DNA of 64,000 bases from Anaeromyxobacter dehalogenans 2CP-1. GTDB taxonomy: Bacteria > Myxococcota > Myxococcia > Myxococcales > Anaeromyxobacteraceae. The stretch covers positions 4,074,501-4,138,500 of the forward strand of contig NC_011891.1 in the NCBI RefSeq assembly GCF_000022145.1, read 5' to 3'. Position 1 is the first letter of the stretch, and each line of letters starts with the position of its first letter. Below are positions 33,909-47,200 of the stretch, piece after piece. The position numbers and the translations under genes are program-made. Under the pieces are notes generated by a model that had not been told where the DNA came from, searched no databases, and saw only the letters and a list, made by a program, of their open reading frames with translations.

Positions 33909-34351
33909 ACCTCCCCACCGTTCGTGGGCCAGACGCCTCCCGCTTTCACGTCCAGCTGATAGCGTAGGGCGCGCAGCGCCATCGCGTTCGGGAGGGCCAC
34001 CAACATGAGCAACCAGACCGTTCTCGGGGTCCATCTCGTCTGCCACGCCAACGAGAACATCGTCGAGTTGCCTAACGGCAGGTTCGAGAGCCGCCGCTGG
34101 GCTCTGAGCCGCAGCTACTTGAAGCCTGGCCAGCTATACGTGGCACTTCACGAGAGCCACTCGAATTCCTCGTACCGGCAAGGCGTGCTGGAGAGTTGGG
34201 CAGACGACGAGCAGGTGCCAGGCCGTGTCGTCCTCACGGTCCGTGCGACGCAGACCCCGCTTACCTGGACCGGCCGAGGCGAGCGCGTGTCAAACGACAG
34301 GGGGAATTGACCCCCAAACGACAGAACTTCTGACCCCCTCCGCCTCGGGGT

Positions 34352-35131
34352 TCAGTTCGCCTTCTCGGCCCTGCCGAGCAGGCCCGCCTTGCGCTTCTGC
34401 TTCAGCCTGTAGCTCTCGCCCTGGATCATCAGCGTGAAGCTGTGGTGCAGGAGCCGGTCGAGGATCGCGGCGGCGAGGATCTCGTCCCCGAACACGGTGC
34501 CCCACTGCGTGACGACCTGGTTCGTCGTGATGATCATCGCGCCCTTCTCGTACCGCCTCGCGATGAGCTGGAAGAACAGGTGCGCACTGCGCTTCTCGAA
34601 CGGCAGGTACCCCAGCTCGTCCACGACGAGCAGCTTGGGCTTCGCGTAGAACGCGAGCCGCTCCGCGAGCTGGCCCTCGGTCTCGGCCTTCGAGAGCGCG
34701 CCCAGCAACGCCGTCGCGCTCGTGAAGAGCACGGTGTAGCCGGCTTCGACTGCGGCGCGCCCGAGCCCGATGGCGAGGTGCGTCTTGCCGACGCCGGGCG
34801 GGCCGAACACGAGCACGTTCTCCGCGTTCGCGACGTACCGGCTGACGGCGAGCTCGCGGACGAGCTTCTGGTCGACGCTCGGCTGGAACTTGAAGTCGAA
34901 GTCGTCGAGGGTCTTCACCGCGGGGAAGTGCGCGATCTGGATGCCCATCGCGACGCGCTTCCGCTGCTTCGCCCCGACCTCCTCGCGCAGGATCGTGTCG
35001 AGGAAGTCGAGGTACGTCGGCTCGCCCCGTGCCGCGGTCGAAAGCAACGCGTCGAGCTGCTCGCCGATGCGCCCGAGGCGGAGCCGGCCGAGGCTCTCGA
35101 GGACGCGAGCCCGCGTGATCTCGGTGCTCAC
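34352..35131 (-). CDS. istB: IS21 transposition helper ATPase
   Basis: A 259-residue AAA+ ATPase that selects target DNA and stimulates the IstA transposase. The N-terminal helical part ends near 90. Walker A is GPPGVGKTHLAIGLG (about 112-126) and Walker B is LLVVDELGYLPFEKR, with the sensor stretch IITTNQVVTQWG (Asn/Gln region). Length is normal for IstB. Its ATG overlaps the istA stop by four bases. Confidence 0.96.
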   Translation of the reverse strand: MSTEITRARVLESLGRLRLGRIGEQLDALLSTAARGEPTYLDFLDTILREEVGAKQRKRVAMGIQIAHFPAVKTLDDFDFKFQPSVDQKLVRELAVSRYVANAENVLVFGPPGVGKTHLAIGLGRAAVEAGYTVLFTSATALLGALSKAETEGQLAERLAFYAKPKLLVVDELGYLPFEKRSAHLFFQLIARRYEKGAMIITTNQVVTQWGTVFGDEILAAAILDRLLHHSFTLMIQGESYRLKQKRKAGLLGRAEKAN

Positions 35132-36405
35132 GCGGCACCGCCGATCACGGCCGCGTAGTCGTCGAGCGTCCGTCCGAGCGCGGCGAGCGGCTGCGCGATG
35201 GGAACGAGGTTCTCAGCCGCAGGCCGGCGCCAGAGGCCGTCGAGGTGGGCCGGGTCGATCACCCGCGCGTGCGGCTCGAACGAGCGCGCGTGAACCGCTA
35301 CGACGTCGCGGCCGTGGAAGATGCGAACCTCGTCGGCGGTGACGAGCGCCTCGACGCGGTCGCGCACGAGGCGGTGCGGAACGCTGTAGCGGACCGTGTC
35401 GATGTCGATGAGCGAGTCGTTCGCGACGCGCCGCTGCAGGCGACGGCCGTGCGTCGGGAGCGGCCGCGCGGGCAGCGACCTCAGTGCCTCGCGCTCGTCG
35501 CGCTCGAAGCGTTTCGCAGGGGCCTCGTGCGTCGTCCCGTGCACGCGGCCGTCCACGAGGAGCTGCCACGCGGATAGGTGGTCCTGCAGGTGCGCGAACG
35601 AGTTAAACCGCCGACCGGCGATCGCGTTTCGCTTCACGTACTTCACGCCGGACTCGGTCTTACCCTTGGTCCTGGCGCGGTATGGCTGGCAGGCGCGCGG
35701 CTGAACATCCCAATCGCGGCAGAACGCGACATACGCCGGGTGGAAGATCACGGTCTGCGCCTCTCGGTTGCGGCCGGCGACGAGGCAGCGCGTGTTGTCG
35801 CCGAGAACCTCGAGCGGCACGCCGCCGAAGTGGCGGAACGCCGACGCGATCCCGTCGAGCCACTCGCCCTGACGCTCGTGCAGGAACGCCTTCACGAAGA
35901 TCCGCCGCGAGTAGCTCAACACCGCGGCCAGGAAGTGCACCGTCACGCGCTCGTCGGCGATCCAGACCTGGCGCTCGCCGAAGTCGATCTGCATCTGCCG
36001 GCCCGGCGCGGTCTCGAACCGGACCGTCGCAACGTCGGCGGCGCGCTGCTCGCGCCGGCGGTCCGCCACGGCACGCTGCACGGTCCTCACGCTCGCCTCA
36101 ACGCCGCGCTCACCGAGCATCTGCGCGACGACCACGGCGTTGCCCTCGGCCTCGCCCTCGAATAGCGCGACCGCTTCAGCTCGCCGGACGTCGTCGAGCC
36201 GCTGCTGTGAAGGGTGCCGTTGGAGATCGGCCACCGCGCCGCGCAGGTACCGACGCACCGTGTTGCGAGCCACGCCGAGTTCGCGCGCGATCCGCTTCGC
36301 GCCCCAGCCCTTACCCGCGAGGTCACGCATCTGCCTGACCGCCTCCGCCTCGACCATCGGCACCTCCGTCGTCGGGGGTGCCACGAATCCCATCTCGCTG
36401 CCCAT
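35128..36405 (-). CDS. istA: IS21 transposase
   Basis: A 425-residue DDE transposase. Helix-turn-helix domains at the N terminus (RDLAGKGWGAKRIARELGVA then NTVRRYLRG) bind the multiple end repeats. The catalytic core has the first Asp in MQIDFGERQVWIADE, the second in EVLGDNTRCLV, and the Glu in KTESGVKYVKRNA. A C-terminal beta-barrel follows (SLIDIDTVRYSVPHRLVRDR). The gene is intact and lies just inside the right end of the element. Confidence 0.96.
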   Translation of the reverse strand: MGSEMGFVAPPTTEVPMVEAEAVRQMRDLAGKGWGAKRIARELGVARNTVRRYLRGAVADLQRHPSQQRLDDVRRAEAVALFEGEAEGNAVVVAQMLGERGVEASVRTVQRAVADRRREQRAADVATVRFETAPGRQMQIDFGERQVWIADERVTVHFLAAVLSYSRRIFVKAFLHERQGEWLDGIASAFRHFGGVPLEVLGDNTRCLVAGRNREAQTVIFHPAYVAFCRDWDVQPRACQPYRARTKGKTESGVKYVKRNAIAGRRFNSFAHLQDHLSAWQLLVDGRVHGTTHEAPAKRFERDEREALRSLPARPLPTHGRRLQRRVANDSLIDIDTVRYSVPHRLVRDRVEALVTADEVRIFHGRDVVAVHARSFEPHARVIDPAHLDGLWRRPAAENLVPIAQPLAALGRTLDDYAAVIGGAA

Positions 36406-37657
36406 CTCCGCCTCCTTGCTGAGGGCAGAGGGGGTCAGAAGTTGTGTCGCAAGGGGGTCAGTTATCCTGTCGCTCTACAGCGCGAGAAGAGCAAGGGTGT
36501 CTCGGGAGACCCGGAGGCGCTCCGGAACTGGAGTCTCGCCTGTGGCCCGACCACGTACCTCGCTCGTATCTGCTGGAACTCCAAGGGGTGGCGCTGTGCC
36601 ACGGGCGAGGCCCGCGGGCTCGAACTCCAGCCAAGCTTCGTCTCAACGAATGGCTTTGGACACGAAGAGTGGCTGTTCAACAACCTATGGGAGATCGACG
36701 GCTGGCGGTACGGATTCCTCCAGCCGGTAAACCGCGCCTGGGACAGTCATCAGGGCGAGGTCATCGACGTTGGGCTCTACACGAAAGACCCCGCCAAGCG
36801 CCGGCTCTGGGTCGGTCGCATCCGACGCGCGGAGGTCCTGACCGAACAGCAGGCGCGCACCGCTCACGCGGAGTTCGAGAGGCGAGGGCTGCTGAGGAAG
36901 ATGCGGGACGAGGTCACCGCCATCGGAGGGGACACGTCAACTTTGGAATCGGTATCCCACAGCTTCGCCCCTTTCAACATCCGATTCCTAGCGAGTGACT
37001 TGGAGATCGCGGACCCGCCCGAAGCGCTTCCCGCGGACCATCGGGTGTGGAGCCTTCACCGATACGTGTTGACCTCTGCTGGCGAGGGGGACTTCGGCCT
37101 CGGCGGCAGCGCAGGCACGCGCAACCGCAGGCCAGAGCACTTCGATCCCAGGAGTCCTACTGGCCCGACAGAGGTCGAGGCCCGGCACAACCAGCTCCAG
37201 AATCACCTGTTCGATCTCTTGGACCAGAAGTACGGGTGCGCCGTCGTCATGGAGAGGAACCGGGTCGACATCGTTGTCGAGCACCCGGATCTTCACGCTT
37301 TCATCGAGGTCAAGTCCGATCCCGAAGCCCGGCTCGCGCTGCGCCATGCCATCGGGCAGCTCCTTGAATATGCTTGGTACGAGCGCCCCGACTCCCCGCG
37401 CCCGGAGCTGATCGTCGCTGCTCCGGCGCCGCTCACACCAGCCGCGCGGGCGTACATCGATCGCATCCGCGATAAGGAGGGACTGCGGATTCGGTACTTC
37501 CAGGTCACGCTGGAGACGAGTGACCTGGCAGGACTCACGTCCTGAACTGGCGAGGGAACCTCGGATCGCCAGCGCAGGACCGCGTGATCGCCGTCGACGC
37601 ACCGTTCATGAAGGCGACAGCGCATCGACGACGGCGCCGCGAACGACGCGGGCTCGA

Positions 37658-38341: not shown

Positions 38342-39181
38342 ATGACCTCGGCGCGACGGTGCGTGTCCTCTCGCACGAGACTCGCCGAGGGTCACGCAAC
38401 CGGGTTGCGCGACCGCTTGCGGTCCTGGGTCGTGACCACGAAGGCGCTCTTCCGCAGGGACCGACTGGCGAAGGCGGTTGAACGGACGAAGCCGCGGGTG
38501 ATCTTCCCGTGGCGGGACAGGCTGCACACCTGGGCCACCGCCGACACCGAGTTCGCGGCCGCGTTGGAGATCCCGATCTCCTCCCACGCGGTGGTCCGGA
38601 ACGGGCGCGTCGTCGCGGAGCCGCGCGTCCTGATTCCGGAGTGCATGACGACCACTGGCGAGGGCTCGAAGCGCCGGCTGCGCGCGCTACTCGAACCAAG
38701 CCTCGATGCCGCCGGAATGATCAGCGCCCGCGAGCCGGCCTCTCAGCCTGATGACGCGATCGAGACACTCGTGGATGAGGACCGGATCGCCTACCTCGAG
38801 AGCTTCCGCGTCCGGCTGCTCCAGAGCATGGTGCTACTGACGCTAGAGCCGCTGACAAACGGCATGTGGCTGCCCGGGTGCCACGCCTACGTCAGCGACC
38901 GGTCGATCTACACCGCTGTTCGGATGGCGCTCCAGAACGTGCGCGCCGGCCGGCACTGGGTGATTAAGGCGGACATCCAGAAGTTCTTCGAGAGCCCCAC
39001 GGCGGAAACAGTCGACCTCGTGATCCGTCATGAGCTGCCGCAGGTCACCGGGCGGCTTCGGGATCTGATCCTCTGGTTCTTGTACCCGAACATCATTCGC
39101 GACGTGAAGCGGGAGGCGGTGATGCTGCTCGACGCGGTGGCCCCCGAGCGCGCGGGCACCAGGCGGGCACCAGCGGCGTAG
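38342..39181 (+). pseudogene. Truncated reverse transcriptase gene
   Basis: The frame encodes the fingers/early palm of a bacterial reverse transcriptase: RVRLLQSMVLLTLEPLTNGM, then CHAYVSDRSIYTAVRMAL and the motif-A-type HWVIKADIQKFFESPTAE with its catalytic Asp. It stops before the YxDD box, so it cannot polymerise. The last codons (KREAVMLLDAVAP...) do not look like RT but like the end of a tyrosine integrase (the intact one ends KEQAIRLLDDRP...). The stop codon lies six bases before the 56-bp att repeat, nearly as for the intact integrase (four bases). A deletion joining RT to an older integrase end explains this. The 5' start is uncertain. Confidence 0.7.
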
Positions 39182-39187
39182 CCAAGA

Positions 39188-39243
39188 AAAAACCCCCGGC
39201 CGAAGCCGGGGGTTAGATGGAGCGGGAAAAGGGATTTGAACCC
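39188..39243. repeat. attL direct repeat (56 bp)
   Basis: Identical over 56 bases to 47145-47200. It holds the tRNA-Gly terminator hairpin and the last 26 bases of the tRNA (39218-39243), after which the sequences diverge (GCTGGTACGC here). It is therefore a displaced attachment-site copy and not a second functional tRNA. Confidence 0.92.
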
Positions 39244-39434: not shown

Positions 39435-40361
39435 TCACGAATCGGGCCGCCCCGGCGCTTGCGCAGGGCCAGATTCGAGAGTGTCTGGCGCGGGGCCCGC
39501 GGTTGGTGCGGCCGGAGCTCCGGGGCCGCGCGCCCGCTTTCCGTCTAGCGGGATGATGCGAGTCACCGCGGCACTGTAGAGTCCCGCAGGGTCACTCAGG
39601 TCACCCATGTCCTCGCGCGAGTAGAAGAGCGCGAGCGCCTGCTCAAACCGACCACGATCCGCTTCCCACCGGCCTACGATCAACTCGTCCTTGGCCCATC
39701 GCAGCACAACACTCTCAAAGAGAAAAGAGTTGAACGCTCTGACAACGTTCTGACACGCCTTCGCGGCTGCGTGGAGCTCCGCGAGCCGTACGCGCACGTG
39801 CTGCCGACCCTTGCCGTCTAGCTTGAGCGCTCGCGCGTTCCCCGCGCTCAGCTCTCCGCGCGAGTGCGCAGCGGCGTGACGCAGCTGACACACCGATTCG
39901 AACTCAGCGATGGCCGTCGCCACGGACGAGCCGTCCGGAACGTCGACGTTGAGTACTTTCTTGGTTCTGCTCTTGATCTCGGTGCGAGAGGCGAAACTCG
40001 TACCCTCAAAGAGTCCGAGGGGAAGCTCCTCTCCTTGGTAGTAGTCGACAGCACCGAACGCGACGAGCTGGTCAGCAGCGTGCGCCCGAGACAGCGGACA
40101 AACCTGGATGGTGCGTGCGAGGACCGATCGAAAGAACTGTTCGACACCTGAAACAAGACCGAGGATCAGAACGCGACCGAGCACATCGTTGGCCTCCAGC
40201 GCGTCCTGAGTTCCGATCGTGATGACCTTGCGTGCATACGCGTAGTACTCATCGATCGGACTCTCGGTAGCTTTCGCCGCTGGCGCGCAGAACTTGCCGC
40301 AGTCAAGCGCTAGCGCCTCTTCAGAAGAGCACACCTTCGGCCATGGCTGTCGGCTAGACAC
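39435..40361 (-). CDS. HEPN-type RNase-like protein, partner of ATPase
   Basis: A 308-residue all-helical protein with a HEPN-nuclease signature. QLRHAAAHSRGEL gives R161-x4-H166, fitting the Rx4-6H catalytic motif, and helices before it (FGAVDYYQGEELPLGLFEGT, then ASRTEIKSRTKKV) match MAE_28990/RiboL-PSP-like HEPN layouts. The last 45 residues are Pro/Ala/Gly-rich and disordered. It starts at a GTG lying within the end of the upstream ATPase gene (8-bp overlap), so the two are co-translated. HEPN proteins in such pairs usually cleave RNA when a partner senses infection. Motif-level assignment only. Confidence 0.7.
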   Translation of the reverse strand: MSSRQPWPKVCSSEEALALDCGKFCAPAAKATESPIDEYYAYARKVITIGTQDALEANDVLGRVLILGLVSGVEQFFRSVLARTIQVCPLSRAHAADQLVAFGAVDYYQGEELPLGLFEGTSFASRTEIKSRTKKVLNVDVPDGSSVATAIAEFESVCQLRHAAAHSRGELSAGNARALKLDGKGRQHVRVRLAELHAAAKACQNVVRAFNSFLFESVVLRWAKDELIVGRWEADRGRFEQALALFYSREDMGDLSDPAGLYSAAVTRIIPLDGKRARGPGAPAAPTAGPAPDTLESGPAQAPGRPDS

Positions 40362-42057
40362 TCACGAACTCCAGTGCTGCGTTCCGGATACGAGCCGCCC
40401 AAACCCGCCCGATGTACGGCACGGAACGAAGCTTCTGCGTGTCCTCGTCCAACAGCACATCTTGCACGGTTCTGATGTTGGTATTCGACAGAAGCCCGTC
40501 CTTCTTCTTCTTCGTAAGTGGCAGCGCGGAGATGGGAGCGCGGAGCAGGTCTTCGTATACAGACGATTCGACCAACTCCTTGCCGCACTTCACGCAGAAG
40601 GAAGCATCCGGCGACACCCTCGATGCGCCGCAACTTGGACAAGGCGCGAGATTCAGAACGCAACGCCGCTGGTAATCCTCGCCCAGCAAGGACGCGCCCC
40701 GCGCACGCACGAACGCATGTGCCGAGCGCTGCCGCAGCGCTGTGATCGCCGCCAGGGTTGCTGGGGCGCGACCCAAGCTCAGGGCATTCTCACTAAGCAC
40801 CATTGCGTAGTGGAGAACGTACCTCTGGAACCGGCCCTTAACTCCGCGCGACACGGGCTCGATCTTGCGAACGATACCGGCGTATTCGAGCATCGCGAGA
40901 ATCGTCGACAGCTCCGAGTCGATCGGCTCCTGGAGCGCGATAACAGTCGCCTTGCGAGTGTTGGACTTGTTCTTGTTGTATTGGCGCAGAGCCTTCACGA
41001 ACGCCGTCTGAAGTTCCTCACCAACATCTAGCAAGTTCTTGTATCGAGGCAACTTTGCCTTCAGCGCCTCGAAGATGCCGCGAACAATAGCGGCGTGAGC
41101 CGCGATCGCCTTGTCAGCGCTCTGCCGCGTAGGCTTCACGGAGGCATCCTCCTCAACGCCCAGAATCTGCGAGAGCATGAGTAGGAAGCCCCTGGGCAGG
41201 CCGAAACACGCGAGAGCTAGGTAGTCGATGAGTTCGCTCTTGCCGGCTAGGCGGTTACGGAGCTCGCCAGGGACGCGCCGCTCATACATGTCCCGCATCA
41301 TTTCCAGATAGCCTGCGTCTTCGGGCTGGTACCACGCCTCTACGAGCTCGGCCTCATGACCTACCTGGAAATAAGGCGAGTAGCTTGTGATCCCGGGGTA
41401 CACGGCGGCCTTCGCCGACACTACCCGTGAGCGCATTTCGCGGAAGATCTCGAAGAAATCGCGCTGCTGCTCAGGCGAGAATGCATGTGCCGCGTCATCG
41501 AGCAGGAGCACACAGCGCCGCATTCCACATGCCGCCGTCCAGCGCTCAAGCAGCGCCAGAAGCGCTGATGGAGCGATCGGCTTAGGTAGTTCCTTCGGCG
41601 GACTTCCTGTCTCTAGCGCCTGAATGAAGCCTTTCGCCTCGCGTGCGAGCGCGGCGACATCGGGCGGCTCTTCTCGCTCGGCCTCTCGTAACGCGCTTGC
41701 GGTGCCATCGACGATCTTTAGCGCCACCCACTGCCGAAACAGCTGAGGCGCGTCGGATCGACGATGGAACAAGGGCTCAAGCGCGAGCGATCGCGAGTAG
41801 TTTACGTACACCGGTAGTGCATCATCGCCCCCGAGCAAGTCGTAGTAGGCCTTCTTCAACAGGGTCGACTTGCCGCTACCACGAGGGCCGCTGAGCAGCT
41901 TTGCTCCAGGCATCTTGAGCTTCGCGATGATGTGCCGATCGCGTGCGCCCTCGGCGGTCCAGGACATCAGCTCGTTCTTCGAGAGATTCTCTGCGCGTTC
42001 CTCGAAGACGCTTGCCAGGTTTTCCTGTTGAACAGCTTGAGTCTGAACGGATGGCAT
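40354..42057 (-). CDS. ORC/STAND-like ATPase with zinc ribbon and HhH
   Basis: A 567-residue P-loop ATPase. Walker A is SGPRGSGKST (56-65) and Walker B is RCVLLLDDAA (181-190); GLPRG near 287 resembles the sensor-2 region of ORC/Cdc6-like and STAND ATPases. A winged-helix-like region follows (about 370-420). A zinc ribbon uses C473, C476, C488 and C491 (PCPSCG...FCVKCGKEL), and the C-terminal end (about 505-565) is a helix-hairpin-helix with VPYIGRVWAARIRNA. The last two suggest nucleic-acid binding. It is coupled to a HEPN-type gene. Its base composition is clearly less GC-rich than the backbone. I know no described system with this exact architecture. Confidence 0.8.
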   Translation of the reverse strand: MPSVQTQAVQQENLASVFEERAENLSKNELMSWTAEGARDRHIIAKLKMPGAKLLSGPRGSGKSTLLKKAYYDLLGGDDALPVYVNYSRSLALEPLFHRRSDAPQLFRQWVALKIVDGTASALREAEREEPPDVAALAREAKGFIQALETGSPPKELPKPIAPSALLALLERWTAACGMRRCVLLLDDAAHAFSPEQQRDFFEIFREMRSRVVSAKAAVYPGITSYSPYFQVGHEAELVEAWYQPEDAGYLEMMRDMYERRVPGELRNRLAGKSELIDYLALACFGLPRGFLLMLSQILGVEEDASVKPTRQSADKAIAAHAAIVRGIFEALKAKLPRYKNLLDVGEELQTAFVKALRQYNKNKSNTRKATVIALQEPIDSELSTILAMLEYAGIVRKIEPVSRGVKGRFQRYVLHYAMVLSENALSLGRAPATLAAITALRQRSAHAFVRARGASLLGEDYQRRCVLNLAPCPSCGASRVSPDASFCVKCGKELVESSVYEDLLRAPISALPLTKKKKDGLLSNTNIRTVQDVLLDEDTQKLRSVPYIGRVWAARIRNAALEFVSV

Positions 42058-42245
42058 CTTCTTGCTTCCCTCGCTCGCTGCTTGGAAGTGCGGCTGCGAA
42101 GACCCCGCGCACGCCTCGTTCCGGGCCCCGGTGAGCTCACCCTGTCGGCGACGAAGGATACACCGGCGGGCTCACGGAAGCTCTTTCGGTGAACAGCATG
42201 GTCGGGGGCGCCGTGGACGCACGGCGGTCTGGTACCCTCGTCATC
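42058..42245. promoter_or_regulatory. Divergent promoter region, ATPase/EVE nuclease
   Basis: The upstream regions of the minus-strand ATPase-HEPN operon (GAGGGAAGCAAGAAG before its ATG) and of the plus-strand nuclease gene meet here. The right gene lacks a clear ribosome site, so it may be read from a near-leaderless transcript. No operator is obvious. Confidence 0.4.
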
Positions 42246-43321
42246 ATGGGTTATTGGTGGGAGACGAACGCAGCGGCTGGTGAGCGCTTCTGGTGCGAGA
42301 TCACGGACCGGCCAGACGTGGGCGCCGACCTGAAGTGCCCTCAGACCAACGAGAGTGGGAAACCGTACTGGTCGTACTCGTTCATCGGGTCCGTGGCACC
42401 GGGCGACGTGGTGTTCCACTACTCCACGAACAGCCGCAGCTTCGTTGGTGCGTCCGTGGCGGGTGGTCCTGTCGAGTCGCGGCCCATCGTCTGGGCGCCT
42501 CACGGCACTGTCGGGCGCAGCAAAGGCGAGGAGCGCCAGGCTCGGCCGGGGTGGTGGCTGCCGCTCTACGGATACCGTCCTGCGTCCGAGCCGCTGACGC
42601 TGGACGAGCTCCAGGCGCCCGAGGAACAGGCCTGGATCCGCGCGTGGCTTGCCGACACGCAAGAGCGATTCGGAGCCACGGGCGCGCCGCTGCAGCCTAT
42701 CCGAAGCTGCTGCGCGCAGCGCAGGGCTACCTGACGAAGATGCCGCGCGTCTTCGTTGAGCGCTGGCCGAAGTTGGGGAAGTTGGTCGACGCTCTGGACG
42801 GCGTGCGCGCAAACCTGGAAGCGCTCGGAGAGGTGATGCCGCCGAAGCTTCCGAACGCACCTTCGCCAGGCGTGTTCCGGCCGAAGAGCGCCGAGGACTA
42901 CCGCGCGCAGATCCAGGGAGGCTTCCAGGTCCGGTCCCGCAAGCACGAAGCTCTCGTCAGGATCGCAGGCGAGCTTTTGCTACGAAAGGCGACCGTCACG
43001 ACGCCTCACCCGGTCGACCTCCGCATGACGAGTCCCGTTCCCGTCATCTTCGAGGCAAAGACCGTCGGAAGCCGTGGGCCGGGAGCAGCGATCCGAGAGG
43101 CTGTGGGGCAGCTCTACGAGTACCGATACTTCATCGGGCCGCGGGACGCGCGTCTGTGCGTGCTGTTGGACGACGATCCCGGCGCCGTGCTCGTCCAGTA
43201 CGTCGAGGACGAGCTCGGACTGATGATCGCGTGGCTCGCGGACGGCGTACTGCGCGCAGGCCCCGTTACTTCCGATTCGCTGAGGTCGGCGGGCATCGAC
43301 CTCGCGCAGCTGGCCGCTTAG
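42246..43321 (+). pseudogene. EVE-like/PD-(D/E)XK nuclease gene, frameshifted
   Basis: Two frames make one protein. Frame one (42246-42734) begins MGYWWETNAAAGERFWCEIT and contains PYWSYSFIGSVAPGDVVFHY, the pattern of an EVE/PUA-like domain that reads modified bases. Frame two (from about 42690 to 43321) continues AYPKLLRAAQGYLTKMPRVF and holds a nuclease core: PVDLRM with the Asp, VIFEAKTVG with E-x-K, then REAVGQLYEYRYF. A -1 shift near 42690 joins them. Such fusions act as modification-dependent restriction enzymes. Alternatively two cistrons were intended: an ATG (42739) lies five bases after the first stop. Confidence 0.75.
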
Positions 43322-43415
43322 GCTGTCGCACCTCGCGAAGCGACTTGGCGTTTCGCGCATCGTGCTCTCGGCGCAAGCGGCGGCGGCAAAGGCGACGACG
43401 ACCGCCGATGGCAGC

Positions 43416-43503
43416 GGCGCCGGGCGACGGCGCCGGGCGACGGCGCCGGGCGATGGTGGCGGGCAATGGTGGCGGGCGATGGTGGCGGGCGATGGTGGCG
43501 GGC
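43416..43503 (+). repeat. 13-bp tandem repeat array
   Basis: Seven units at a near-constant 13-bp step: GGCGCCGGGCGAC at 43416, 43429 and 43442 (the last ending GAT), then GATGGTGGCGGGC at 43452, AATGGTGGCGGGC at 43465, and GATGGTGGCGGGC at 43478 and 43491. A 13-bp step is not a multiple of three, so it is not coding. Position upstream of the initiator gene would suit iterons or a replication/transfer origin. Confidence 0.8.
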
Positions 43504-43680
43504 GACGGGCGGCGGCGACGGGCGGCGGCGACGGGCGGCGGCGGCGGGCGGCGGGCGGCGGGCGACGGGCGGCGGGCGACGGGCGACGGGCGACGGGCGA
43601 CGACGGACGACGACGGACGACGGACGACGGACGACGGCGATGGACGACCGCGGCGACGGCGATGGGCGACCGCGGCGACG

Positions 43681-43789
43681 GACGACGGACGGCGCCGTCG
43701 GTCGACGGCGGCGACGGCGGACCCGCGGCAACGGACGACGGACGGCGCCGTGGCGGTCGACGGCGGCCACGGCGGACCCGCGGCGACGG
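43681..43789 (+). repeat. Imperfect 53-56 bp direct duplication
   Basis: Copy one (43681-43733) and copy two (43734-43789) share GACGACGGACGGCGCCGT, a GGTCGACGGCGGC block and the segment ending CACGGCGGACCCGCGGC or its near equivalent. Copy two has a three-base insertion. It is part of the same slippage-prone region as the 13-bp array. Confidence 0.7.
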
Positions 43790-44040
43790 CCGACGCGCGC
43801 GACGCTCGACCGAGCGGCGATGCTCGACCCGGTGGCGACGGTTGACGGGCAGCGGTGCTCGACTGGCGACGCTAGAGGCCGCCGGGTCGAGCTGCGCTCA
43901 GAGAATGCGCGCGTCGTCCCGATCGTAATTCGCTTCTGAGGACGGCGAGCTCCACCACCAAGAAGATTCTTGTAGCGCTACTGATCGATCACCCTACGCT
44001 TAGGAGTCCTCACGACTGAGCCGTTGGCTCCGGAGGACTT

Positions 44041-44316
44041 GTGGAACCGATCTCCAGCTCCATTTCGACGCTTCGACTCCTTCGCCTCACCGCAGGGTTG
44101 CCCCAGTTCGTTCTTGCGAAGAGAGCCAACATGGCCGCTTCGCGCCTGTCGGTCATCGAGCGCGGGTACGATGAGCCCACAGAAGCGGAGCAGGCACAAC
44201 TTGCACGCGCGCTGGGCGTTCCTCAGGAAGCGCTATTCCCCGATCAGCGGCCGAGCCCTATCGCAACGACGCCGGGTACCAAGGCCGCTCACGATAGCGA
44301 GCGGGCGCCGCGATGA
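44041..44316 (+). CDS. XRE-family transcriptional regulator
   Basis: A 91-residue helix-turn-helix protein starting at GTG with CCGGAGG four bases ahead. The XRE domain is at about residues 7-65: LRLLRLTAGLPQFVLAKRAN then SRLSVIERGYDEPTEAEQAQ and ALGVPQEALFP. The C-terminal 20 residues are disordered. It overlaps the initiator gene start (ATGA), so it is probably the element's own regulator of the Rep-Xis-Int operon. Confidence 0.85.
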   Translation: MEPISSSISTLRLLRLTAGLPQFVLAKRANMAASRLSVIERGYDEPTEAEQAQLARALGVPQEALFPDQRPSPIATTPGTKAAHDSERAPR

Positions 44317-45671
44317 CGACCGCGCGCCGTACTCTCCACGTTCGTTCGCCTGTGGTCGCGGTGTGTAACACGCGACCCGATACCGTCACCGCTACGGAGG
44401 CAAGCTCCCAAGAACTCAAGGCACCTGTGCGGACGGGTGACGCGAGAAGTGCCGTCGAAACCAGCCTAGACGGCGATGCGGGGGTCAGCGTCATCGCCTC
44501 CGGAATCGACACTCTGTACCTGTTCTCGCACGCCCCCGTCTTTCGCACAGAGTTCAGGCGCCTCGAGGACGCACAGCAGCTGGCCCGAGCCAACCCGAAC
44601 CGCCTGGCGAAGGGTCCCACCCTCGACATCGCGGGACACTACTTCGCGATGAACCGCCATGGCGCCCGCACTGCGCCCTATCTGCTGGACAGCGAGCACG
44701 CGACCCTGCTGGTGAATCCACACGCGGCATCGACGTTCCCGACGTTCACCGCCGAGCTGCGAGCCATCTACCTCTGGCAGAAGGGCGCACGATTCGTCGC
44801 CGAGCAGGCCGAGGAGATCGCCAGCCAACTGCTCGTTCGCATGACACCCGAGGACGCGCGACTGCACGTCGGGCGTGTGGACCTGGCCGTCGACTTCCAG
44901 GGATGGCAACCACGCGAGGGCGATGGGCCAGAGTTCGTCACCCGGGCGCACGACCGCACGTCGCATGTTCAGCGGAAGGTCTTCACCGGCTTCATGTTCG
45001 GGCACGGCGACGTCGCAGGGCGGCTGTACTGCAAGAGCATCGAAATCGAGCGAAGCCAGAAGAAATGGTTCCGGAACATCTGGGCCGCGTCCAAGGCTTA
45101 CGATCCAAAGCGTCCAGTCTGGCGACTCGAATTCCAGCTCCGCAGGCCCGCCATCGTGAGCATGGAGCTCGATGGCGAGCACGGGCCGCTCGATACCTGG
45201 GAGGACGTGCTCGAAAGTTCGGGCGCCCTCTGGCGGTATCTCACCCGCAAATGGCTGGCGCTGAAGCACCGCACGAAGCAGTCGCGGCAGAACTTCCACC
45301 CGGCGTGGGATGCTCTCGCGCGGCTCGGATTCAGCACGGGACCGTGGGAAGGCACGGAGGCGGACCTGTACCGCATCCACCGCCAGGACAGCGCGGAGCG
45401 TGCCACCGGGCAGATCGCCGGATATCTCGCGCGCGGCCTTGCCGAGCACATGTTCCATGAGTCGACGGACGAGCTCGTACAACCGAGCCTGGACGACGCG
45501 CTGCCTGCCATCGTGGAACGGGTGCGCCTGCACACCAAGCGTCGTGGCCGCTCCGTGGAGGAGCGCGCGCAGGAGCGTGTGGCGAGCTGGCTCGCGACCG
45601 CTGAGTCCATGACCATGAACGAGTCGCTCAGGATGCGTGAACCCGGCGACGACGACGGGGACGAAACATGA
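44313..45671 (+). CDS. Rep_trans-like replication initiator/relaxase
   Basis: A 452-residue protein of the replication-initiation-factor (Rep_trans, PF02486-like) type found on rolling-circle plasmids and integrative elements. Family marks: a G-I-D-T-L start of the core (SVIASGIDTLYLF), RVDLAVDFQGWQPREG with the conserved Asp pair, GRLYCKSIEIERSQKKWF and VWRLEFQLRRPAI. The N-terminal 60 residues are variable. It would nick an origin on the element and allow limited replication or mobilisation. It is coupled to the XRE gene and followed by xis and int. Confidence 0.8.
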   Translation: MTTARRTLHVRSPVVAVCNTRPDTVTATEASSQELKAPVRTGDARSAVETSLDGDAGVSVIASGIDTLYLFSHAPVFRTEFRRLEDAQQLARANPNRLAKGPTLDIAGHYFAMNRHGARTAPYLLDSEHATLLVNPHAASTFPTFTAELRAIYLWQKGARFVAEQAEEIASQLLVRMTPEDARLHVGRVDLAVDFQGWQPREGDGPEFVTRAHDRTSHVQRKVFTGFMFGHGDVAGRLYCKSIEIERSQKKWFRNIWAASKAYDPKRPVWRLEFQLRRPAIVSMELDGEHGPLDTWEDVLESSGALWRYLTRKWLALKHRTKQSRQNFHPAWDALARLGFSTGPWEGTEADLYRIHRQDSAERATGQIAGYLARGLAEHMFHESTDELVQPSLDDALPAIVERVRLHTKRRGRSVEERAQERVASWLATAESMTMNESLRMREPGDDDGDET

Positions 45672-45711
45672 CGACGCGCACGTATCGGGGCACACGTGCC
45701 GGAGACCGACT

Positions 45712-45897
45712 GTGACCGGCCCCACCCCGCCCCTGACTGAATGGCTCACGGCTGACGAAGCGACTGCGTACCTGCGCTTCCCGAGCCGCGATGCGCTGTA
45801 CCAGGCCGTGCACCGCGGACAGATCCCCGTCCGCCGCATCGGGCGGCGGCTCCGCTTCCGGCGCTCCGAGCTGGACGCCCACCTCAAGGCCGCGTGA
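45712..45897 (+). CDS. xis: Excisionase-family DNA-binding protein
   Basis: A 61-residue winged-helix protein of the excisionase/MerR-like HTH_17 group. The pattern is LTADEATAYLRFPSRDALYQ, then HRGQIPVRRIGRRLRFRRSE and LDAHLKA. The GTG at 45712 has CCGGAG seven bases ahead. It sits 64 bp before the integrase gene and would bend DNA at the att sites to favour excision. Confidence 0.88.
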   Translation: MTGPTPPLTEWLTADEATAYLRFPSRDALYQAVHRGQIPVRRIGRRLRFRRSELDAHLKAA

Positions 45898-45961
45898 CAC
45901 CGTCCTCCACCAGCACGGTAGACTCCGGGTCGGCGTGCGTCGTCGGGGGAGGTCCCTGACG

Positions 45962-47140
45962 ATGGCTGTGAAGGTCCGAGAGTACCGTCGGCGCGGCAAG
46001 CCGATGGGATGTTGGGAGGCGGACGTGCGGCTTCCGCTGCCGAGCGGCGAGTTCTATCGGGAACGGGTGCGTGTGCCCGTCTCCGGGAAGACGAGCGCGA
46101 AGCGGTGGGCGGACGCACGCGAAGCAGAAGTGATCAGCCTTGCGCGGAGTGGTCTCGATGCCGAGGCGATCCACGCGAAGCTGAACGGCAAGGGAGCGGC
46201 GAACGAGGCGCGGGTTCCGACCCTCGCCGAATTCGAGAAGCAGTTCATCGAGCACGCGAGGGCGAACCGGCAGAAGGCGAGCACGGTGTACGCGAAGGAG
46301 TCCATCCTCCGCGTCCACCTGGTCCCGGTCCTCGGGACGAAGCGGCTCGACGAGATCACCGAAGCGGACGTCCAGGCGCTCAAGGTGACACTCGCCGAGC
46401 ACCGGCCGAAAACGGTCAACAACGTGCTCGCCACGCTCTCGAAGCTCCTGCGCGTGGCGAAGCGGCTCGGGGTCATCGACGCGGTGCCGGTCGAATCCTT
46501 CGAGCTCGTCAAGGCTCCGCTCGCCGCCGTGCCGTTCTACACGTTCGAGGAGTACGCGGTCCTCGTCGCTGCCGCTCGGCGACTCGACCCGCGCATCCTC
46601 GCGGCGGTGCTCCTTGGCGGGAACGCTGGCCTCCGTGCTGGCGAGGTGGTGGCGCTGGAGCTACCGGACGTGCGCCGGGCGAACGCCCGGATCACGATCG
46701 AGCGTCAGGCGTGGCGTGGAGTCGTGGATACGCCCAAGGGTGGCAAGGGCCGGGTCGTCCCGATGACCGATGCCCTCAAGGCCGCGCTCGCGGCCGTGCG
46801 CCACCTTCGCGGTGCCCGCGTGCTCGTGCAGGACGACGGGTCCGACCTGACGGCGAAGGTCCTCCGGGGATGGATGAAGAGTGCCCAGCGGCTCGCGGGG
46901 CTCAGGCCGACGGGCAACTTCCACATCCTGCGCCACACGTTCTGCTCGCACCTCGCGATGCGGGGCGCCCCGGCGAAGGTGATCCAGGAGCTGGCGGGGC
47001 ACACGCACCTCTCCACGACGATGCGGTACATGCACCTCGCGGAGGGGCACAAGGAGCAGGCGATCAGGCTGCTCGATGACAGGCCCGTCACCGCACCGGC
47101 AGCAGGCGTGGAGGCCAGGTTGGAGGCGGTGGAGGGCTGA
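45962..47140 (+). CDS. int: Tyrosine-type integrase
   Basis: A 392-residue site-specific recombinase. The N-terminal arm-binding part (1-80) is followed by the core-binding SAM-like domain (about 85-180, PTLAEFEKQFIEHARANRQK). Catalytic residues are R225 (GLRAGEV), the beta-hairpin Lys near 262, H321/R324 (HILRHTF), H347 (GHTHLS) and nucleophile Y356 (MRYMHL). The gene ends four bases from the right att repeat in tRNA-Gly, typical for element integrases. It starts at ATG; no strong ribosome site is seen. Confidence 0.95.
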   Translation: MAVKVREYRRRGKPMGCWEADVRLPLPSGEFYRERVRVPVSGKTSAKRWADAREAEVISLARSGLDAEAIHAKLNGKGAANEARVPTLAEFEKQFIEHARANRQKASTVYAKESILRVHLVPVLGTKRLDEITEADVQALKVTLAEHRPKTVNNVLATLSKLLRVAKRLGVIDAVPVESFELVKAPLAAVPFYTFEEYAVLVAAARRLDPRILAAVLLGGNAGLRAGEVVALELPDVRRANARITIERQAWRGVVDTPKGGKGRVVPMTDALKAALAAVRHLRGARVLVQDDGSDLTAKVLRGWMKSAQRLAGLRPTGNFHILRHTFCSHLAMRGAPAKVIQELAGHTHLSTTMRYMHLAEGHKEQAIRLLDDRPVTAPAAGVEARLEAVEG

Positions 47141-47144
47141 AAAG

Positions 47145-47169
47145 AAAAACCCCCGGCCGAAGCCGGGGG
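47145..47169 (-). terminator. Rho-independent terminator of tRNA-Gly
   Basis: On the minus strand five bases after the encoded CCA: CCCCCGGC-TTCG-GCCGGGGG followed by TTTTT. The 8-bp GC stem with a UUCG tetraloop and T-run is a textbook intrinsic terminator. The same sequence lies at 39188-39212 in the displaced copy. On the plus strand it lies just after the integrase stop and may end that transcript too. Confidence 0.92.
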
Positions 47170-47200
47170 TTAGATGGAGCGGGAAAAGGGATTTGAACCC
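47145..47200. repeat. attR direct repeat (56 bp)
   Basis: The right copy of the repeat that bounds the integrative element, covering the tRNA-Gly terminator and the last 26 bases of the intact tRNA gene (47175-47200). Crossover lies somewhere within these 56 bases, most likely in the tRNA part. Confidence 0.92.

Follow-up and report, generated by a model that had tools for sequence, protein, structure and literature searches.

The locus examined here raises the question of whether two overlapping, leftwards-transcribed genes make up a defence module, and to what such a module would respond. It lies in a window of 64,000 nucleotides (the whole stretch of DNA analysed) from a host genome of 5.03 Mb in a single contig. 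The first gene of the pair (40354–42057, minus strand; ATG start) codes for a 567-aa ATPase with a C-terminal zinc ribbon and an HhH-like end, and the second (39435–40361, minus strand; GTG start) for a 308-aa partner that is probably a HEPN RNase. Both reading frames are intact and share 8 bp (40354–40361), exactly as in a preliminary description that presented the pair as a candidate for an undescribed ATPase–HEPN defence system. Comparison of the sequences suggests that an undescribed defence module is the likely reading, and that this reading should be extended to a family with two branches, one of which has its own DNA methyltransferase. The preliminary description contained neither the ORC/Cdc6-like identity of the ATPase, nor the methyltransferase found beside half of the family, nor the boundaries of the element that carries the pair.

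The carrier element and the two proteins

The partner gene is accessory, being present in two of 195 genomes of the phylum and in none of eight other genomes of the genus. The pair is flanked by a 56-bp perfect direct repeat, one copy of which (39188–39243) consists of a tRNA-Gly 3′ end and terminator and forms the left end of an element, and the other (47145–47200) is at the tRNA-Gly gene and forms its right end. The copies are 7957 bp apart, corresponding to an element of approximately 7.96 kb at tRNA-Gly. The G+C content is 60–66% over the ATPase gene and the greater part of the partner gene, as against 72–76% to the right of the element, and from this contrast, the att repeats and the tRNA-Gly site we conclude that a small integrative element carries the pair as cargo. 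A putative integrase gene (46009–47079, plus strand) is next to the att site but without a match in a Pfam scan; it is overlapped in another frame by a second ORF (45791–47140), which by eye reads like a tyrosine integrase. An excisionase-like HTH_17 protein (45637–45897, plus strand; PF12728, 4.2e-12) is encoded nearby, and the att copies also enclose a gene or gene pair at 42189–43321 and an ORF at 44313–45671 that has no Pfam match and that we take for a replication protein. We note that there are two nuclease-like genes close to the pair, at 36214–37545 and 42189–43321.

The ATPase is an ORC/Cdc6-like AAA+ protein by both Pfam and Foldseek. It matches the ORC-CDC6-like family PF24389 above the family cut-off (39 bits vs 27; E 5.6e-10), and it has the Walker motifs and ORC/Cdc6-like fold expected of a member. 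The closest structural matches to its AlphaFold model (pLDDT 92.2) are ORC4, archaeal Cdc6/Orc1, TnsC, RADAR RdrA and McrB, with E-values of 2e-6 to 1e-3 for ORC4, Cdc6, TnsC and RdrA, and a sequence search of the PDB gave P-loop-level or weak matches only. Four plasmid-record rows were left out of the alignments used for structure prediction. Both Walker motifs are where the preliminary description had placed them. Walker A (residues 57–64, GPRGSGKS; 41866–41889, minus strand) has G57, R59, G60, G62 and K63 in 71 of 72 homologues, the remaining one being gapped, and Walker B (residues 181–188, RCVLLLDD; 41494–41517, minus strand) ends in D187 and D188, which are present in all 72. The AAA+ core is followed by a helical part (approximately residues 337–420; 40798–41049, minus strand) that is putatively winged-helix-like, to judge from the AlphaFold secondary structure and the Foldseek matches to ORC/Cdc6. 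The four-Cys ribbon of the earlier account (C473-x2-C476 and C488-x2-C491; 40585–40641, minus strand) is also there, with every Cys conserved in the 72 homologues, and it gives a sub-threshold match to Zn_ribbon_3 (23.5 bits vs a cut-off of 27; E 3.7e-5). As to the proposed C-terminal helix-hairpin-helix, residues 500–567 (40357–40560, minus strand) are helical in the model and HhH-like, and the Pfam match to HHH_5 is weak (16.4 bits, E 0.013).

The partner is predicted with good confidence to be a HEPN RNase. Its AlphaFold model (pLDDT 91.6, pTM 0.84) is almost all-helical, and the R161-x4-H166 motif noted earlier is at the end of a helix (residues 146–166), as is typical of the HEPN R-x4-6-H signature. 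In the form R161-H162-x3-H166 (39864–39881, minus strand) its three named residues are present in 73 of 73 partners, and a second patch, E74-x3-R78 (40128–40142, minus strand; helix 61–87), is equally conserved; together with N211 these are the residues invariant across the family (E74, R78, R161, H162, H166 and N211). Fourteen of the 73 members match HEPN_RiboL-PSP (best 3.5e-4; below the family cut-off in the cases shown), eight match the PADLOC RTasHEPN profile, and every other Pfam family is matched by at most one. In one member the HEPN match spans residues 53–165 of 274, a stretch bounded by the E/R helix and the R-x4-H. The window partner itself has no Pfam match, and a PDB sequence search with it found nothing. 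Foldseek gave no significant match to its model (best E 0.67 in the PDB and 0.03 among viral models), HepT and Csm6 being among weak matches only, and an hhalign comparison with a RiboL-PSP HEPN set from the relatives' genomes aligned the wrong part of the protein. The earlier HEPN assignment therefore stands on the motif, the weak HMM matches and context, since Foldseek and the profile–profile comparison lend it no support. The invariance of the R and H and of the auxiliary E, R and N residues over 73 partners argues that the protein is catalytic.

Conservation of the pair and its two clades

Relatives of the ATPase were sought in one genome per species, the contigs being searched with an alignment of six ATPase sequences. 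This found 126 relatives, of which 80 were retrieved, and they are from at least eight phyla (Pseudomonadota, Actinomycetota, Bacillota, Bacteroidota, Acidobacteriota, Myxococcota, Verrucomicrobiota and Omnitrophota); the single window ATPase sequence found no relative in the same genome set. For the pairing count we combined the one-per-species loci with plasmid and relative loci and left out the window's own locus. A co-directional partner gene directly follows the ATPase gene at 84 of these 87 loci, mostly with a spacing between overlap and 11 bp. At two of the other three loci the contig ends, and the last has a divergent ATPase in a Planktothrix operon. With the two contig ends set aside, the next gene matches the partner profile in 84 of 85 loci, which is far above chance. 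Among contigs of a viral collection the partner accompanies 16 of 20 ATPase matches, and the four without it score lowest against the ATPase profile; a search of known phages found no relative of either protein. We regard it as nearly certain that ATPase and partner form one functional unit, and co-occurrence of the homologues, which the preliminary description had named as a check on its two-gene module, bears it out.

The ATPase tree has a starred split into two clades, and these differ in their association with a DNA methyltransferase. Of the 47 clade II rows, 43 have a methyltransferase gene adjoining the pair. Among the 37 rows of clade I, to which the window belongs, one does, and the gene there is an HsdM that forms part of a type I RM operon. 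The methyltransferase label changes five times on the tree compared with a mean of 28.6 when shuffled. The clade II gene may be upstream of the pair, divergent upstream (in a gammaproteobacterial group) or downstream (in Bacteroidota), and the three positions show that the association has not been kept as one fixed arrangement. The enzyme is an N6_Mtase (PF02384) of the N6-adenine type with a near-invariant N-P-P, and its C-terminal half diverges fastest, with approximately 36–55% identity in many comparisons where the ATPases are 70–80% identical, as might be expected of a target-recognition region. The viral-collection loci repeat the clade rule when sorted by identity to the window ATPase rather than by placement in the tree: eleven loci with a methyltransferase have 24–30% identity and five without one have 32–54%. 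A cognate methyltransferase, as an RM system would have, is thus a feature of clade II and not of the window pair; none is beside the latter, and the N6_Mtase matches in the host genome are far away. The endonuclease of an RM system was not seen either, there being no conserved DNase among the linked neighbour clusters of the pair at the coarse clustering used.

Eight clade II loci contain a second three-gene set within a few kb and on the same strand. One example is L050, where this set consists of PRTase-CE (PF24390), a full ORC-CDC6-like protein (PF24389, 1.9e-95) and a 308-aa protein. We considered whether this third gene is a copy of the partner and rejected it, as the 308-aa protein is non-homologous to the partner. 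These eight loci therefore bring together two neighbouring modules of the defence type whose ATPases are related.

The surroundings of the clade I pairs are more varied. In a Kofleriaceae locus (L014) HsdR, HsdM and HsdS are directly followed by the pair, in a Lachnospiraceae locus (L022) the pair is between PglX and PglZ of a BrxC-PglX-PglZ-BrxL operon, and in a third (L020) it follows a type III-like Mod/Res set of methyltransferase and helicase; this is a raw count of three loci. The L022 partner is interrupted by an inserted ORF. An arrangement of the PrrC type, with a HEPN nuclease inside an RM operon, is present in the Kofleriaceae locus and not in the window, and the remaining clade I loci, the window included, mostly have no RM or BREX neighbour. 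One locus (L003) has ParDE and HipA among its neighbours, and one clade I locus has a TniQ-domain neighbour. No conserved transposase was found beside the pair, and the carriers vary among loci.

A clade II trio also occurs in Escherichia coli, one copy being at NZ_CP029574.1 1997738–2001693. In strain DA33133 it adjoins an integrase at tRNA-Thr and is annotated as an HsdM family methyltransferase, an ORC-CDC6 family AAA ATPase and a hypothetical protein; all three match the family profiles strongly, and the third carries 'CELRHCCVHRFG'. The trio occurs in 148 of 5,426 complete E. coli genomes, and a 4-kb block is at least 80% covered in 145 of them with an identity of at least 99%. Since so many complete genomes share a near-identical block, the system is testable at once in E. 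coli. The methyltransferase matches PADLOC entry PDLC03285, a type II methyltransferase, at 1e-237, while the E. coli ATPase has weak PADLOC matches only and the partner has none. The DefensePredictor study reports that four validated E. coli systems have HEPN domains (PMC13092281), and the trio may be among these.

A possible function and its alternatives

We consider it highly probable that the pair has a role in defence, and the defence-like context proposed earlier is seen in type I RM, BREX and type III-like RM operons, prophages and integrative elements. As to what it does, we lean somewhat towards a mobile defence, RM-like and probably abortive, that has the pair at its core and an AAA+ DNA scanner gating a HEPN RNase. 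The ORC/Cdc6-like ATPase, to judge from its fold, would bind and survey DNA through its AAA+ core and its zinc ribbon and HhH-like parts, and would keep the RNase in check. The trigger would be that an expected marking of the DNA is absent, or that partner RM or BREX machinery is being defeated; an ATP-dependent rearrangement would then free the RNase to cut RNA, which may be host tRNA or mRNA or phage RNA, and the infection would be stopped. The clade II methyltransferase and the RM/BREX embedding point to absent marking or failed restriction as the trigger, the methyltransferase suggests that the system marks its own DNA, and the lack of a conserved DNase among the neighbours suggests that the response is RNA cleavage and so abortive.

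Confidence differs between the two clades. In clade II the marking would be the work of the dedicated N6-adenine methyltransferase encoded next door, and gating by methylation is reasonably probable there. The pairs of clade I, that of the window included, come without a dedicated methyltransferase and would either borrow the marking of a resident RM or BREX system or answer another cue; that the window copy reads the marking or the failure of a resident system is a tentative proposal. A stronger formulation is that clade II is an RM system in which a site-specific N6-adenine methyltransferase labels self DNA, the ORC/Cdc6-like AAA+ protein recognises sites lacking the label and a HEPN RNase is the only effector, so that unmarked DNA is answered by RNA cutting, and that the window branch plugs into other marking systems; we put this forward as an arguable model that falls short of an even chance. 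If it is correct, the trio would be a widespread, unnamed system of self/non-self discrimination in which DNA marking gates RNA cleavage, it would supply the missing partner of N6-methyltransferases catalogued only as type II methyltransferases, and the ORC/Cdc6 family would be added to the ATPases with a possible role in controlling HEPN RNases encoded as separate proteins.

Several other explanations were weighed. The one that survives best, and which we nonetheless think unlikely, is an abortive infection or toxin–antitoxin pair unrelated to methylation, in which the ATPase is an antitoxin, or a sensor of a phage protein or replication intermediate, the RNase is the toxin, and the methyltransferase is a fellow traveller. 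It would account for clade I working without an adjacent methyltransferase, for the many clade I loci with no RM gene nearby, for the ParDE and HipA neighbours at L003, and for carriage on integrative elements and prophage-like contigs. However, an association in 43 of 47 clade II rows and in three arrangements is hard to explain for a fellow traveller, and three clade I pairs are in or beside RM or BREX operons.

Those three loci are what would be expected if the pair were instead a guard in the manner of PrrC, inactive as long as the resident RM or BREX system works and firing once a phage anti-restriction protein has disabled it. There is a precedent in PrrC itself: a linked type I RM enzyme keeps it silent, and an anti-restriction factor of the phage switches it on (PMC2610378). 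As a general account we find this rather improbable, because clade II has a methyltransferase only and therefore no restriction complex to guard, and most clade I loci, including that of the window, have no RM operon beside the pair.

It is very improbable that the pair is a maintenance module of mobile elements, acting in target selection or replication control as TnsC or ORC do, with a helical partner that is no nuclease: the Foldseek matches of the ATPase to TnsC and ORC, the integrative elements and the single TniQ-domain neighbour are in keeping with it, but the carriers vary with no conserved transposase, pairs also occur in RM and BREX operons, and the HEPN-type R-x4-H of the partner is invariant. 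Finally, the absence of a confirmed catalytic HEPN among the Foldseek matches and the two nuclease-like genes of the window would allow the partner to be a non-catalytic, HEPN-like RNA-binding subunit with its effector elsewhere (e.g. 36214–37545 or 42189–43321), although this is scarcely credible given the residues invariant over 73 sequences and the lack of any such nuclease gene in the conserved neighbour clusters.

Relationship to known systems

Neither the ATPase nor the partner has a strong match in PADLOC 2023 or NCBIfam 2026. The preliminary description had recognised no named system, and across PADLOC, Pfam, NCBIfam and the literature passages compared we also find none that matches the pair; an earlier description is possible, including in the 2020 J. 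Bacteriol. paper that is said to be the source of the PRTase-CE family. The passages from PMC12839542 and PMC10853773 contain no zinc-ribbon/HhH ORC-CDC6 protein with a HEPN partner.

The pair was considered as MADS and rejected. The mad8 profile is matched by 49 of 72 ATPases (over residues 42–196 in that of the window) but the scores are low, the best being 1.8e-6, and the window neighbours tested have no mad matches. PD-lambda-5 is labelled by a methyltransferase-like domain and is not among the PADLOC matches listed for the trio (the best 25 for the methyltransferase). The DUF499 BREX-related (Hma) systems have an N6-methyltransferase, a STAND/ORC-Cdc6 ATPase and, in some members, HEPN, and Rakesh and Krishnan (2026) describe DUF499/Hma and auxiliary HEPN genes in BREX loci (PMC12839542). 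They differ in having a Swi2/Snf2 helicase-nuclease, a DUF499 ATPase and an N-terminally fused HEPN, as described in the same passages (PMC12839542), and the pair has none of the three; the ATPase has no DUF499 or Snf2-type Pfam match, the conserved neighbour clusters contain no such gene, and assignment of the pair to Hma was rejected.

Two further likenesses concern the ATPase. In SspBCDE and other conflict systems with an Orc/CDC6 AAA+ protein, that protein is proposed to survey DNA for a mark left by modification, although these systems use phosphorothioate marks, triple-wHTH domains and REase or HerA partners (PMC10853773). The trio of PRTase-CE and ORC-CDC6-like protein (PF24390 and PF24389) shares a Pfam family with the ATPase and is near the clade II trio in eight loci, but it is a separate three-gene set whose third protein is unlike the HEPN partner.

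PrrC and RloC also combine an RNase of the HEPN kind with ATP binding and a link to restriction, and give a suicide response when restriction fails (PMC3710099; PMC2610378). In them a single protein contains both the nuclease and an ABC ATPase, whereas the pair has a separate ORC/Cdc6-like AAA+ protein with zinc ribbon and HhH-like parts and, in clade II, its own stand-alone methyltransferase. Anantharaman et al. (2013) proposed that RM subunits keep RM-linked HEPN domains inactive until a failure of restriction sets them free (PMC3710099), and the pair is in keeping with this proposal.

Other features within the integrative element

The element that carries the ATPase and its probable HEPN partner has several other features between its att repeats. 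One is a small gene (42189-42734, plus strand) whose beginning is EVE/PUA-like by eye and which continues into a second frame, ending at 43321 on the same strand, that resembles a PD-(D/E)XK nuclease. A frame change near 42700 seems to separate the two halves, and Pfam searches returned no significant match for either. A second feature is a GC-rich stretch of imperfect tandem repeats (43400-43800) with GGCGAC and GACGAC units, which is unlikely to be coding sequence. ARAGORN also calls a tRNA-Leu (45824-45920, minus strand) within the excisionase/integrase coding region, and this is probably a false positive.

Genes to the left of the element

The lefthand att repeat starts just past the end of a reverse-transcriptase fragment (38342-39181, plus strand; PADLOC RT 5e-12, group II maturase-like 5e-7) that is probably truncated. 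Also beyond the att-bounded element is a 443-aa ORF (36214-37545, plus strand) with a PD-(D/E)XK-like end and weak PADLOC matches to LmuA and HEC-02B. An IS21-type pair, by appearance, lies at 34290-36405 (minus strand), with a 425-aa transposase-like ORF containing integrase-core-like sequence followed by an ORF of the size of a helper ATPase.

Relatives in other genomes

In a Planktothrix agardhii plasmid (L007, 1884-15701), a divergent ATPase relative is housed in an operon with DUF4007, PAPS reductase, DEAD helicase, DUF2779 and phospholipase D genes; the 239-aa protein immediately before it has an R-x6-H pattern and may be another HEPN. A Piscirickettsia salmonis plasmid (L008, 10115-11288) has the pair in fragments, an ATPase C-terminus and a split partner, adjoined by phage genes; 38 Piscirickettsia plasmid records match. 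An ORF of ~410 aa, transposase-like by sequence, has been inserted into the partner gene of the Lachnospiraceae BREX operon and splits it (L022, 9907-12099). Near the methyltransferase-ATPase-HEPN genes of clade II, eight loci (L050, L051, L052, L054, L055, L062, L063 and L075) have a trio of PRTase-CE, full ORC-CDC6-like and ~304-aa genes.
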